Assembly: GCA_017506865.1 (NCBI GenBank)
Contig: JAFCMP010000168.1
Location: 558,001 to 622,000, forward strand
Direction: 5' to 3'
Origin: Tribonema minus
Taxonomy: Eukaryota; Sar; Xanthophyceae; Tribonematales; Tribonemataceae
DNA: 64,000 nucleotides
Positions within the stretch are counted from its first letter, which is position 1, and each line of letters starts with the position of its first letter. This document shows, in pieces, positions 319-63,745 of this stretch. Made by a program: the position numbers and the translations under genes. The notes beneath the pieces are model-generated. The model was not told where the DNA came from, searched no databases, and saw nothing but the letters and a program-made list of their open reading frames with translations.

Positions 319-2439
319 CTCATCGGCAGCGAGGCCATGGGCGCTGCGGAGTGCCTGACCACCGCCATCGCGCGCGCCGACATGGAGCTGCGGCGCGCGC
401 TGTTCGCGTCCGTCGTGCTCAGCGGCGGCTCCACATGCCTCGCGGGCTTCGGCGACAGGTACGTATGTATGCATTAAGTGTACTTCAAGAGTGAAGTCGA
501 TCCCCCCCAGGCTCTGCACTCATTTGCGTTCGGCGTGCTTAGCGGCGGCTCCACATGCCTCGCGGGGTTCGGCGACAGGTATGTATGCATGCACTCAGTG
601 TACTTCAAGAGTGAGGGAGGCGCCCATTACCTTTGCAATTGATCGAATGTCAGAAAATAAGTAAACCTCTGTCAACTCAAATAAAAACTCAGAAAGTATG
701 ACATGACTTATTGTTGGTTGACTGGTACTTTAGGTCGTCAATCTGTTGAGAAAAGCCTTAGAAGATGCCTTGCAAATGGATTCTGTATTGTTGGTGGTGC
801 TGCACATGGTGCTATATTTATGGTTCGTGATTATAATCCAGCTAAAAACTACAACAATTTATTGGATCGTGTAATACGACACCGTGATTCGATTATCTCA
901 CATTTAAATTGGGTTTTAATTTTTTCAAGGTTCCACATTTCGGCTTATAAGCCATAAATATGTCCACAATGACACAATTTGTGTGTCGTTGTACACAATT
1001 TTGTTTTCCTGTTGTATACTTCGAGTATCAATTCAATCTGAAACCCTTGAAACTTATGAATTGGCAAGTTATTGCTCAGTTATTATCTGCCGCAGCGATC
1101 ACACAACTGACTTTTCATAGCTGTACCCGCAATAAATTTATATTGGAGCTTATTGAATTGACTAGAATAATTCAAAAAACATTGTCCGTACAAAACGTTA
1201 CATGGCTCATGATGAATCTAACGAATGCAATATAGGTGATAAAGTTATAGAAATTTGAGAAAAATCCAAGCAGTGCTTCAAGTTCTGTTCAAGCGGTACA
1301 TTACTCACAAGGTGTAAATATTTCTGCTGAACATGTTGAAATTCTTATACAACACAGATGACAGGCAAAGCGCAAATAATTACTTCAGGGGCTGCACCAC
1401 TTTCACCAAATGAATCAGTAGATAGGTTGTGCTAATAACAGCGCACGCAACCTCAATACACGTGTGGGCTGCATGCGTGCTCTGCAATCATCATGCAGTG
1501 CGTGCCACTGCAGTCCGTGTGTGTGGGCTCCATGCGCGCCACCATGGAGATGAGCTTCGAGGTGACGCAGAGTACCCCTAACCCTAACCCTAACCCTAAC
1601 CCTAACCCGGGAACTCAGTGTCCTGGAATAAAAGCAGGTCCACAAAAATCAGCACGACGAAACGGCGCGGTCGGCTCAGCTCTGCCGCGCCGCCCGCCGC
1701 GCGCGCGCACCGACCAGGCGTCATTGACAGTCGCAACCACGCAGTACTGTACAGTCCAAGGCCCGAGTATTTGCTTGATGTCCCTGGAATAAAAGCAGAC
1801 TTATGACGCAGCGCGACGAATCTGCCAGCAGCTGACCTCCCCCGCGCCGCCCGCCCGGCCGCGTGCGCACGCTAACCCTAACCCTAACCCTAACGCGCAG
1901 GCTGCTGAACGAGGCGCGCCGCATACACACATAGGCGAAGACACGCGTACTGCATGTCCCAAAATCCAGATGCCCTCATCAGCGCAAAGGCGATCCGCTC
2001 AGCTCCGCTGCCGGGCCCCGCCCACCGCGCACGCATGAGACGCTGCAGGCCGCTCAACAAGGCGCGCAGCATCGCCGCGACGCCGGAGCCGTCGACAGTT
2101 GCAACCGCACAGTACACAGTTGAAGGCCCGCATATTTGCCTCATGTCTTGAGGTGACAGCAGATTTACAACTCAGCCCCGCCGCGCCCCCGCCCTCCGCG
2201 CGCGCGCACGCTAACCCTAACCCTAAAACCTAACCCTAATGCGCAGGCTGCTCAACGAGGCGCGCCGCGCCGCGCCGCGCGGCACCAAGATCCGCATCGC
2301 GGCGCCGCCGGAGCGGCGCCTGTCGACGTGGATCGGCGGCTCCATCCTCGCGAGCCTCAGCACGTTCCGGACCATGTGGGTGACGCGCGCAGAGTACGAG
2401 GAGCACGGCAAGGGCATCATGGACGCGCGGGGGCTGTAG
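319..2439 (+). CDS. ARP1/centractin-type actin-related protein, 3' part
   Basis: Two 3' exons are seen, 319-458 and 2247-2439 (stop TAG); the 5' part lies left of the window. The junction splits an Arg codon (AG|G), which gives the core [15 protein letters not shown]. The exons encode the last third of the actin fold, including [14 protein letters not shown] and [20 protein letters not shown] and the ending [15 protein letters not shown] differ from conventional actin (GIADR, HRKCF end) and resemble ARP1, the filament subunit of dynactin that links dynein to cargo. A divergent actin or another ARP remains possible. The intron is 1.8 kb and contains plastid DNA, a copy of the donor junction and an array of acceptor copies. 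Confidence 0.75.
531..614 (+). repeat. Copy of the ARP1 exon end with 5' splice site
   Basis: Bases 531-614 repeat 411-494 about 120 bp downstream: the codons for [12 protein letters not shown], the donor CAG|GTATGTATG and the intron stretch GTGTACTTCAAGAGTGA. This is an exon-intron junction duplicated into the intron; a competing donor is preserved. Confidence 0.85.
778..976 (+). pseudogene. psaA: psaA fragment (photosystem I P700 apoprotein A1)
   Basis: Translation gives [19 protein letters not shown] and [19 protein letters not shown], a conserved PsaA segment around one transmembrane/lumen region. The frame breaks near 945. YVHNDT, the next conserved PsaA residues, resumes in another frame at 959-976. 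About 65 of roughly 750 codons remain, so this is a non-functional nuclear copy of plastid DNA. Confidence 0.9.
1181..1252 (+). pseudogene. rps17: rps17 fragment (plastid ribosomal protein S17)
   Basis: One frame reads [20 protein letters not shown], the most conserved block of bacterial-type S17. The reading frame is open only over this short piece and the flanks do not continue the gene. Plastid-encoded rps17 is typical of red-lineage plastids. Confidence 0.85.
1287..1427 (+). pseudogene. rpoC2: rpoC2 fragment (plastid RNA polymerase beta'')
   Basis: [20 protein letters not shown], then after a frameshift [20 protein letters not shown], matches the conserved rpoC2 block that usually reads QxVYxSQGVxIxDKHIEVIxRQMTSKV. 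The shift lies near 1352. The fragment is non-functional. Confidence 0.85.
1619..2275 (+). repeat. Four tandem acceptor-side units with telomere-like repeats
   Basis: Units of about 160-190 bp begin with TGTCC/TGTCT at 1619, 1779, 1953 and 2143. They share CGCGCCGCCCG-type stretches, CAGTACnnnACAGT-type stretches and, in units 2-4, a copy of the exon start GCAGGCTGCTNAACGAGGCG (1895-1925, 2041-2070, and the real exon at 2241). Runs of CCCTAA lie at 1575-1606, 1873-1894 and 2212-2238, just before the acceptor copies. Unit 4 runs into the true ARP1 last exon. Confidence 0.8.
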
Positions 2440-4476
2440 TTCAAGTTGTAGTTCAAGTTAGGGGGTGTGCGTATGTTGCGTACCCTGGGGGGAGGGGGAC
2501 GGGGGGGGGGGGCTTGTGCACGCGCGGTGCGTGTGCATGCGCAGCTGCTCCCTTCCCTGCGCCCCTACCCCCGGGACGCCCCATTCAATGTTATCGTCGT
2601 CTGTGGTGCTGTGGCGGGCGTGGAAAATGGACTTGATGTCAGTCGATCTGCTGCTCTGTGCGTGTGCTGGTGCCTGCATGCGGCATGGCGCATAGCATGC
2701 AGCTATTCTGCTGCGTCGTGCACCGTGGCGCCCCCTTTCTTGAGGTACTTATTGCGCGCTGTCGCGCTTCGCGTTGCTGTGCTAGTGTAGCTCATGAATC
2801 AGCGCCATTGAGTGCTTGCCATGCCCACCAGTGCTCAGACAGGAGCAGCACACATACCCTAGGCCAACAAGTGATGGCCATGAGCATGCTGGACTAATTT
2901 ACAGCCCGTCACTTGACTTGCCTGGTTGCTGAAAATCACAACGGAATGGTGCTCTTTTCTACTGAGTATTCACCCCCGTCCGTGTATGAGTCGCGAGCGC
3001 TCGTGTATGTCATGTTCAAATTTGTATGATTTAGAATGCACAACCAATGTGCGCGCATGGGCTTTGCAATGTAGAAGTTGTGGTCGATCTCTCTCCTCAT
3101 TTCGGAAGTCATGATTTGAAGTCTCATCCTTCAACGGCATTCCTTCACATCTGAAGCTGTCGGCATATTTGCGACCTTGCACCAGCAGACTACGTCGGGC
3201 AAAAATTGCCAATGCATTGGTACCAACAACATGTTGTTCTGATATGAGCGGAACGACAGGGACTGCAATGCCATGGGCAGCGTGACTGTGCAGCATCGCA
3301 TCAGACGACGCGCCTGTCGTTTCGCTCGTGCCAGAACAACATGTATTGGTACCACTGCCATGGCATTGCAGTCCCCCTGTGTGTGGGCATCATCTGCCAG
3401 CACATTGCTTCGAGACGCACCGCCAGCAAGCAAACAACGGCAAGCGAATTCATTAGGGCGGGGGCAGGACACACGACAGCGGGACACACACACAAACTGC
3501 ACGCAAGGCAGCATGCGCACGGCTATGTGGTGGCGCCACAATCCAGGTTGACGCTGAGTATGCAATGGTGTGGTGTACACAGGTGCACCAGTTTTCTTGT
3601 ATTTGTGCTCAGGGCGTGAAACAACCCATATGTGTACAGTTCTCCTGTACCAGATGTGTGTGCAGAGAGGTATCGTATTGCCTTGCAGGTATCGTATTGC
3701 CTTGCAACTCCCACCGTCCTCTAGCATTAAAGTGCAGACTTCCCGGCCTGCTGCCACTTGAGCCCAAAAGCCGAGTGTGTGCATGGCAAAGGGGCCTGGC
3801 CCCCCAGACATAGCCTACCATGCCGGCACAGCTGCCCGCATAGCTCTATTCAGCACAAACTTCTCTAACATGCATGACAATTATACAACATGCAATCTGT
3901 TTGCTTGTGCGCCGTGTCAGTGACCCAGCGCAGCAGCAGCCACCTACAAAGTACTGCGGTCTAGCGGACGTATAGAACAACGACTCTTGAACACCCAACC
4001 CGATCCACAAATGCGCGCGGCTGCTGCCCCTTGGACCAGCCTGGGATGAGCCGTGCTGCACTGCAGTGACGTGCCATCACGACTCGGCGGCGGCCCACCT
4101 GCAGTTTGCTAGGGCTGAAATCGCGCACAAACCATGCTCGCGCACCAAACTTTAAGCTCCAACGAGCAGGCCAATCCCTGAGGAATCTCACGACACAGCG
4201 CGCGCATGCCGTCGCGCCTTTCGTCAAGCGCATATGCCACTGCACGAAGGGACGCGCGCCGTCAAACGCGGTCTGCGCGCCGTCAAACGCGGTCTGCACG
4301 CCGCTGCAACGCACCGCAAGCGACGCGCGCAGCAGCGCCCAGCCCTTGGCCGCGAACCGTCCGCTGAACGTGCTGCGCGACCACGCGCCGCGGCGCCGCT
4401 GACGCGTCGAGCGCTGCCGCCGTGCACCCTGCAGCGCGCAGCGCGCCGCCGCCGCCGCCGCCGTCGCCGCCGCCGC
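2440..4476. other. Intergenic, no supported gene
   Basis: This lies between the ARP1 stop and the 3' end of the minus-strand gene at 4477. It holds GT-rich low complexity (2460-2530), a foldback (3219-3373), a 19-bp tandem duplication (3669-3706), a weak minus copy of the interspersed repeat (about 3590-3660) and two tandem copies of CGCCGTCAAACGCGGTCTGC (4257-4300). A 226-codon open frame at 3131-3811 (-) has no domain and spans the foldback, so it is not called. Confidence 0.6.
3219..3373. repeat. Foldback with permuted arms
   Basis: Left arm: a GGTACCAACAACATGTTGTTCTG block (3219-3257) followed by ACTGCAATGCCATGG (3261-3275). Right arm, inverted: GTCGTTTCGCTC...CATGTATTGGTACC (3316-3353) and CCATGGCATTGCAGTC (3358-3373). 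Both blocks are present in inverted form, but their order is swapped relative to a simple hairpin. Confidence 0.65.
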
Positions 4477-63552: not shown

Positions 63553-63745
63553 GTGCGTGCGAGATGGCAACGGTCCGCCGCGCTGACGGCGTGTGTGCTT
63601 CCGCTGCCCGCGGCACACTGGCGCCAGCGCGCAGCCGTTTCATGTGCTGCGGTCGGGGGGCGCGGTGCAGCCGCCGCCGCCGCAGCAGCAGCAGCAGCAG
63701 CACCCCGTCCTCCTGCGCGTGCTCTCGCAGGTGCGCGTGGCACGG
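63505..63745 (+). repeat. Copy of the exon 9 donor with CAG run
   Basis: 63672-63735 (CAG run, CCCGTCCTCCTGCGCGTGCT, CTCGCAG|GTGCG) repeats 63498-63560, spacing about 177 bp. The frame is open in both copies. Confidence 0.9.

Follow-up and report, generated by a model that had tools for sequence, protein, structure and literature searches.

Genes and tandem repeats in the window

The sequence analysed here, referred to as the window, comprises bases 558001-622000 of contig C168 of Tribonema minus (64 kb), and several of its genes exhibit introns that contain tandem copies of the splice junctions bordering them. Pfam, against which a subset of the reading frames of the window was scanned, recognised an actin gene on the plus strand (about 1-2440), a Sec1 family gene on the minus strand, a DUF4149/TMEM205-like gene and a ubiquitin-conjugating enzyme gene; an ankyrin-repeat exon is also present. 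Read by eye, the Sec1 family gene is Sly1/SCFD1-like (Sly1-like below). One Sly1 frame, used as a query against PDB sequences, returned no match, a protein search with the TMEM205-like sequence returned two metagenome hits, and scans of the window for tRNAs and with Rfam, at its gathering cut-offs, returned none either. Exons were called with a home-made gene finder, a small hidden Markov model whose only inputs are codon bias and splice-site scores and which is blind to repeats. The resulting gene models are predictions for this one window. At the strict setting, used without re-training, 56 exons were called, 45 of them strong, giving 90 boundaries, although some of the small predicted exons are copies themselves and the exact boundary counts should not be pressed.

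When the window was compared with itself, direct repeat pairs 40-1000 bp apart far outnumbered inverted pairs (64 against 1 at E<=1e-4, and 81 against 3 at the looser cut-off of E<=1e-2). Three block shuffles that kept the local composition gave no direct and no inverted pairs in each case. The repeat pairs are not due to chance, and they merge into 24 arrays. Alignment of four arrays showed that the exon edge, the splice site and the adjoining intron bases recur together as one unit. The nearest copy mostly lies about 96-350 bp away, and up to five copies could be aligned per junction. The exon part of the aligned units ranges from 19 to 101 bases, the lower limit being partly forced by the design of the search.

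The central observation of the first-pass annotation of this DNA, that introns carry tandem copies of their own junctions, is thus real in the window, and all six intervals that it gave as examples contain direct-repeat arrays. It had also noted that the UBC12 and TMEM205-like genes are free of such copies, and indeed no unmasked array lies near them (none between 26265 and 39629). Masked arrays may escape the count: the one at the Sly1-like acceptor 26463 lies in sequence masked by BLAST and is visible only by direct alignment. The restriction of the copies to the intron side, which had been presented as a property of the arrays, is close to a tautology, because whichever copy of a doubled junction is spliced leaves its twin within the intron.

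Junctions and their copies

The actin-like gene (plus strand) exhibits copies at three junctions. Its acceptor at 319, within the gene recognised by the Pfam Actin domain, has one aligned upstream copy in which the AG is now AC (85..342), the donor at 458/459 has one downstream copy (403..614) and the acceptor at 2247 has an upstream copy (1726..2268), the last two being supported by the gene finder. Two further junction groups belong to unnamed genes. The donor at 6225 on the minus strand, placed by eye, has one copy (6045..6313). On the plus strand, the acceptor at 13943 is preceded by two full-length tandem copies (13550..13996; self-comparison and alignment), and the donor of the same exon, at 14064, is accompanied by three aligned copies (14033..14744; gene finder and alignment).

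The Sly1-like gene (minus strand) exhibits copies at six of its 11 placeable junctions, and none were found at the other five. The gene finder and alignment together support two aligned copies of the donor at 23051 (22266..23110), with other repeats found by self-comparison between them (22360-22862), one of the acceptor at 23190 (23127..23436), three of the donor at 25187 (24666..25241) and five of the acceptor at 25351 (25325..25911). The last two junctions delimit one exon of about 165 bp (25187-25351), which is therefore preceded by five aligned copies of its acceptor and followed by three of its donor. The donor at 26199, placed by eye, has one copy (26035..26265) in which 67 exon bases and 2 intron bases align, and the acceptor at 26463 has one aligned copy in masked, low-complexity sequence (26360..26640), outside the 24 arrays found by BLAST.

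In the remaining part of the window, the donor at 39654 (plus strand, 39629..40268) shows several weak copies by eye, one of which could be aligned and none of which exceeded the threshold for copy alignment. Also on the plus strand, the acceptor at 41832 has one aligned copy and a second seen by eye (41592..41857; gene finder and alignment), and the donor at 41987 has one nearly full-length copy (41891..42223; self-comparison and alignment). Four aligned copies accompany the donor at 49166 on the minus strand (48709..49193), where the exon score is low and the junction was placed by eye. The other junctions lie on the plus strand: the donor at 56963, with four copies that could be aligned, of which two or three lack the GT depending on the alignment (56896..57687), the donor at 59848 with two aligned copies (59799..60100; alignment), the donor at 61871 with two copies (61836..62282), where again the exon score is low and the junction was placed by eye, and the donor at 63552 with one aligned copy (63440..63753), at which, at 63730, the gene finder set the end of the exon.

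Association of the arrays with exon boundaries

With the strict gene finder, 17 of the 24 arrays extend across an exon boundary that was predicted as strong, and 19 of the 90 boundaries are touched by arrays. Two of the crossing arrays, 24032-24261 and 40576-40914, were assigned by the gene finder alone, without a check by eye. When the four junctions placed by eye are included (the donors at 6225, 26199 and 49166 on the minus strand and at 61871 on the plus strand), 21 of the 24 arrays cross a junction. The three that cross none are 7454-7859, 42904-43025 and 61132-61255. The first of these, with 78% identity between copies, is possibly coding sequence with no recognised junction and may be a repeated protein domain.

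A placement null in which no arm could lie wholly within an exon gave a mean of 4.9 crossing arrays and a maximum of 10 in 400 trials, against the 17 observed, and a rotation null in which all arrays were moved together gave a mean of 7.3 and a maximum of 15 in 2000. As the first version of the gene finder had partly been trained on exons adjacent to arrays, it was run again after training only on exons without arrays, upon which 16 arrays crossed a boundary against a null mean of 5.0. Across six settings with this training, the number ranged from 12 to 20 of 24, the null means from 3.0 to 6.8, and each observed value exceeded the maximum of its 200 trials. A scan anchored at junctions found a match on the intron side at 31 of 88 junctions, compared with 22 of 300 random anchors far from predicted exons. 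The arrays are in excess at predicted exon boundaries. Tandem copies equally common away from junctions, which the first-pass annotation had named as an outcome that would refute its proposal, are not what is seen inside the window, to which this result applies.

These counts bear on the simplest rival, according to which tandem duplications arise randomly everywhere, those in exons are purged by selection, and those crossing junctions only seem special as the introns are short relative to the unit. No special mechanism would be needed, duplications of this size should often cross a junction where introns measure several hundred bp, and an array on contig C112 that barely enters its exon would fit. 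However, the placement null already bars arms lying wholly in exons, and still reaches 4.9 rather than 17 of 24. Furthermore, introns shorter than the unit predict duplications of the whole intron, which would place an acceptor copy immediately ahead of a donor copy, whereas in the three introns that have an array at each end (459-2246, 25352-26198 and 23191-25186) the donor copies occupy the 5' part and the acceptor copies the 3' part. Random duplication followed by purging is therefore an unlikely explanation, though one that retains some weight.

Two further loci, on contigs C334 and C112, were fetched only for their fragments of the plastid gene rbcL, and exhibit four arrays at exon edges by eye. 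At three junctions on contig C334, the alignment between junction and copy extends across the splice site. In the gene on contig C112, an HBB domain of the type found in XPD helicases scores just below the Pfam cut-off.

Decay of the copies

The decay of the copies was assessed at 20 junctions chosen for having arrays, and only copy matches covering the junction entered the counts; 19 junctions gave at least one such copy, the exception being the donor at 39654, for which none passed the threshold. Between exon and copy, mismatches amount to 36/544, 42/552 and 77/547 at codon positions 1, 2 and 3, respectively (6.6, 7.6 and 14.1%; chi-square p 3e-5), and mismatches between junction and copy to 83/668 in the first 25 intron bases. 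The overall mismatch rates are 9.4% in the exon part and 12.4% in the intron part. These values are close to those expected of a freely drifting copy beside an exon that changes at silent sites only, namely about 7% at positions 1 and 2 and about 14% at position 3 and in the intron. On that expectation, positions 1 and 2 would show the drift of the copy alone and position 3 and the intron that of both sides, giving a ratio of about two.

The higher divergence of third codon positions is also what would be expected if the copies were alternative or mutually exclusive exons, and three of the 37 copies are usable in frame. However, the ratio is just twofold, as synonymous drift of the real exon alone would give, only 16 of the 37 copies have a length divisible by 3, six are without an in-frame stop, and use of the copy would bring an in-frame stop in 31. 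Apart from these few, an open frame was not found in the copies, nor was coding constraint. The first-pass annotation had itself raised real mutually exclusive exons as an objection to its proposal; judged from reading frames, they are disfavoured, and we give such exons hardly any credence.

The intact GT or AG in 32 of the 37 copies could indicate that copies are kept by selection, as spare splice sites that recruit the spliceosome or regulate the gene through unproductive isoforms. Nevertheless, drift alone predicts about 28 to 30 intact sites among 37, so the excess is small and unconvincing, and the pattern across codon positions fits unconstrained copies. Retention by selection is accordingly improbable, and the copies are best read as dead DNA, with a decay that fits neutrality.

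As the copies are so divergent, an artefact of the assembly is unlikely, and the spread of divergence among them suggests more than one age. The claim that identity falls with distance from the junction was borne out only weakly: among the nine arrays with at least two aligned copies, comparing the nearest with the farthest, the nearest copy had the higher exon identity in five, an equal one in two and a lower one in two.

Insertions and other sequences among the copies

Foreign sequence does lie between copies, as had been reported. In the actin-like intron, a psaA-like plastid fragment (775..942, plus strand; Pfam PsaA_PsaB) separates the donor copy from the acceptor copy. In the Sly1-like donor array, the 38 bases at 24780-24817 are 92% identical to a repeated element on contig C146 (L002:1501-1538), and a mobile element may, to judge from this match, have landed between the donor copies. 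The repeats of the C146 locus, which was fetched for the match, resemble a mobile element and not junction copies.

The same search bears on introner-type mobile elements carrying splice sites, which are known from a range of eukaryotes, as the cited parts of PMC9860276 report. Every array, however, copies its own exon edge, and the Sly1-like donor array, the one array of the 24 that was used as a query against the entire assembly (158 Mb in 554 contigs, very common words being skipped), matched itself and the one 38-base stretch, so that no dispersed copies of this array were found. An introner origin of the arrays is scarcely conceivable.

On contigs C334 and C112, fragments of plastid rbcL are present in nuclear DNA close to exons that carry junction arrays. 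Together with the psaA piece at 775-942, they raise the prospect that introns may commonly capture plastid DNA. Read by eye, a nuclear rbcL fragment outside the window is of the red type of RuBisCO, so the host is probably an alga whose plastid is of red origin.

Short CCCTAA/TTAGGG runs, resembling telomere repeats, are found within introns or close to them, in either orientation (1578-1596, 1872-1884, 2211-2230, 25405, 42030-42193 and 61429-61447), and the 10-mer CTAACCCTAA or TTAGGGTTAG occurs 25 times in the window. The runs may be interstitial telomere repeats left by the repair of breaks. A role of the TTAGGG-like repeats as arrays of CTAAC branch points was rejected, as a strand preference is absent: they number 10 sense and 7 antisense in plus-strand genes and 3 and 4 in minus-strand genes, with 1 unassigned. 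A near-palindromic word, ACTTGAAGT or ACTTCAAGT, occurs 11 times in the window compared with about 1 in 20 simulations, and by eye, uncounted, it often lies in introns near copies. Separately, the segments 15911-16255 and 18322-18660, 79% and 94% identical and 2.3-2.6 kb apart, flank an open reading frame whose weak match to a zinc knuckle falls below the Pfam cut-off; they possibly represent a retroelement.

A proposed model of intron lengthening

Based on these results, introns in the window have probably been lengthened by small tandem duplications that span an exon edge, the unused copy becoming intron. In each event, a small local segment would be duplicated head-to-tail, with one of its ends lying within the exon, usually 20-100 bp from its edge, and the opposite end in the neighbouring intron. 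Having two splice sites would do no harm if splicing kept the outer site that borders the exon and the other copy turned into intron. The bordering site would presumably be the one used, because use of the other would bring a stop in the 31 cases noted above. The intron would gain one unit per duplication, repeated events at the same junction would build arrays, plastid and mobile DNA would land among the copies, and these would decay without constraint. A possible source of the duplications is the repair of staggered breaks by fill-in and end joining, and something would have to make exon edges preferred sites of duplication. Plastid DNA and telomere-like repeats are regarded as scars of break repair, and their presence in array introns fits the end-joining step. 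The proposal of the first-pass annotation that introns grow from copies of their own junctions therefore fits the arrays, the excess at boundaries and the neutral decay, with a reach that is that of the window.

Head-to-tail duplication requires a homology about as long as the period or longer, and this fits four arrays. The homology is longer than the period in 13550-13996, 56896-57687 and 61836-62282, and nearly as long in 41891-42223. Other arrays, such as 26035-26265 and 403-614, do not show such whole-unit copies. Partial copies such as those of the donor at 26199 and of the actin-like donor would be accounted for by RNA copying, in which pieces of pre-mRNA that span a junction are reverse-transcribed and reinserted next to it. 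However, the arrays starting at 13550, 56896 and 61836 run head-to-tail with a steady period and whole-unit homology, for which duplication of DNA is simpler, and we consider RNA copying very unlikely.

Several observations weigh against lengthening by junction-spanning duplications. First, the exon-side control of the anchored scan gave a match at 30 of 90 junctions, as high as the 31 of 88 on the intron side; we think that this control is confounded, because in short exons the target reaches arrays at the opposite end. Second, pairs at junctions remain detectable for longer, one side being constrained. By our rough estimate, this bias is no more than twofold, too little to explain the excess at boundaries. 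Third, the array on contig C112 includes just 7 bases of the exon, and its aligned part is confined to the intron and does not reach the splice site. Fourth, several copies lack a full tandem unit, such as that of the donor at 26199, which shares only the 67 exon and 2 intron bases given above. The actin-like donor pair (403-614) matches over 92 bases at an offset of 120 with 90% identity; it is among the better preserved pairs and is still not a full tandem unit. A plain tandem model therefore needs later loss or another copying event for such partial units. Finally, with identities of 80-88%, the arrays made of full units are not particularly young.

A stronger form of the proposal is that duplication is directed to junctions in this lineage, with units that nearly always include some of the exon edge together with neighbouring intron, splice sites being hot spots of local duplication and introns growing genome-wide in an ongoing process. 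This is tentative and, in our view, rather doubtful, because the design of the search partly imposed the limit of 19 exon bases, and only 7 exon bases lie in the array on contig C112.

Comparison with known systems

Changes in intron length are usually ascribed to transposons and small indels. The closest published case is the potato RdRp gene, where a single tandem duplication spanning an intron-exon boundary gave rise to an intron (Ma, Lan and Niu 2016, PMC4974935); the same paper also mentions an 83-bp tandem duplication inside an intron. As in the window, the duplicated segment comprises the intron end, the 3' splice site and the exon start, and the copies later diverge. In contrast, the potato case was a single event in a single gene and yielded a new spliced intron with an inserted exon piece, whereas here the donors and acceptors of several genes are affected, with up to five aligned copies that were apparently swallowed by the old intron. 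The repetition of exon edge, splice site and intron bases that characterises a boundary-crossing duplication is found in 21 of the 24 arrays (17 by the gene finder, 4 by eye).

In the model of Rogers, introns are gained by tandem duplication of an exonic AGGT segment (PMC3443670). Splice-site copies are likewise supplied by tandem duplication, but in that model an exonic segment gives a new intron, whereas the units in the window straddle a junction that already exists, and what grows is the old intron. Intron gain of this kind does not fit the arrays, as their units are not wholly exonic and have intron sequence on one side. Introners similarly change intron content on a large scale, although they form dispersed mobile families (PMC9860276) and the units described here are local to one junction. 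In the cited part of a review of dinoflagellate genomes, introners and repeated introns are described and junction arrays are not (PMC11453091).

With regard to the mechanism of duplication, insertions in rice, reportedly those of Vaughn and Bennetzen from 2014, are cited beside fill-in duplication at breaks. Small tandem duplications arise by fill-in at staggered double-strand breaks (PMC8355091), and these resemble the present arrays in being short and head-to-tail; a focus on exon edges is not seen in the cited part of that paper.

Word searches of open-licence papers found no description of a genome with multi-copy arrays at many junctions. The first-pass annotation had held that no standard description of such expansion exists, and this stands for the pervasive form in those searches, whereas a single boundary-crossing case, that of potato, has been published, as the cited part of PMC4974935 attests.

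Taken together, the results suggest that local duplications crossing exon edges and ignored by splicing are a steady route of intron growth here. If this is true, the repeated copying of junctions gives a countable record of intron lengthening, and spare splice sites would be mass-produced as starting points for new isoforms or introns. It would also raise the question of why a mutational process favours exon edges.

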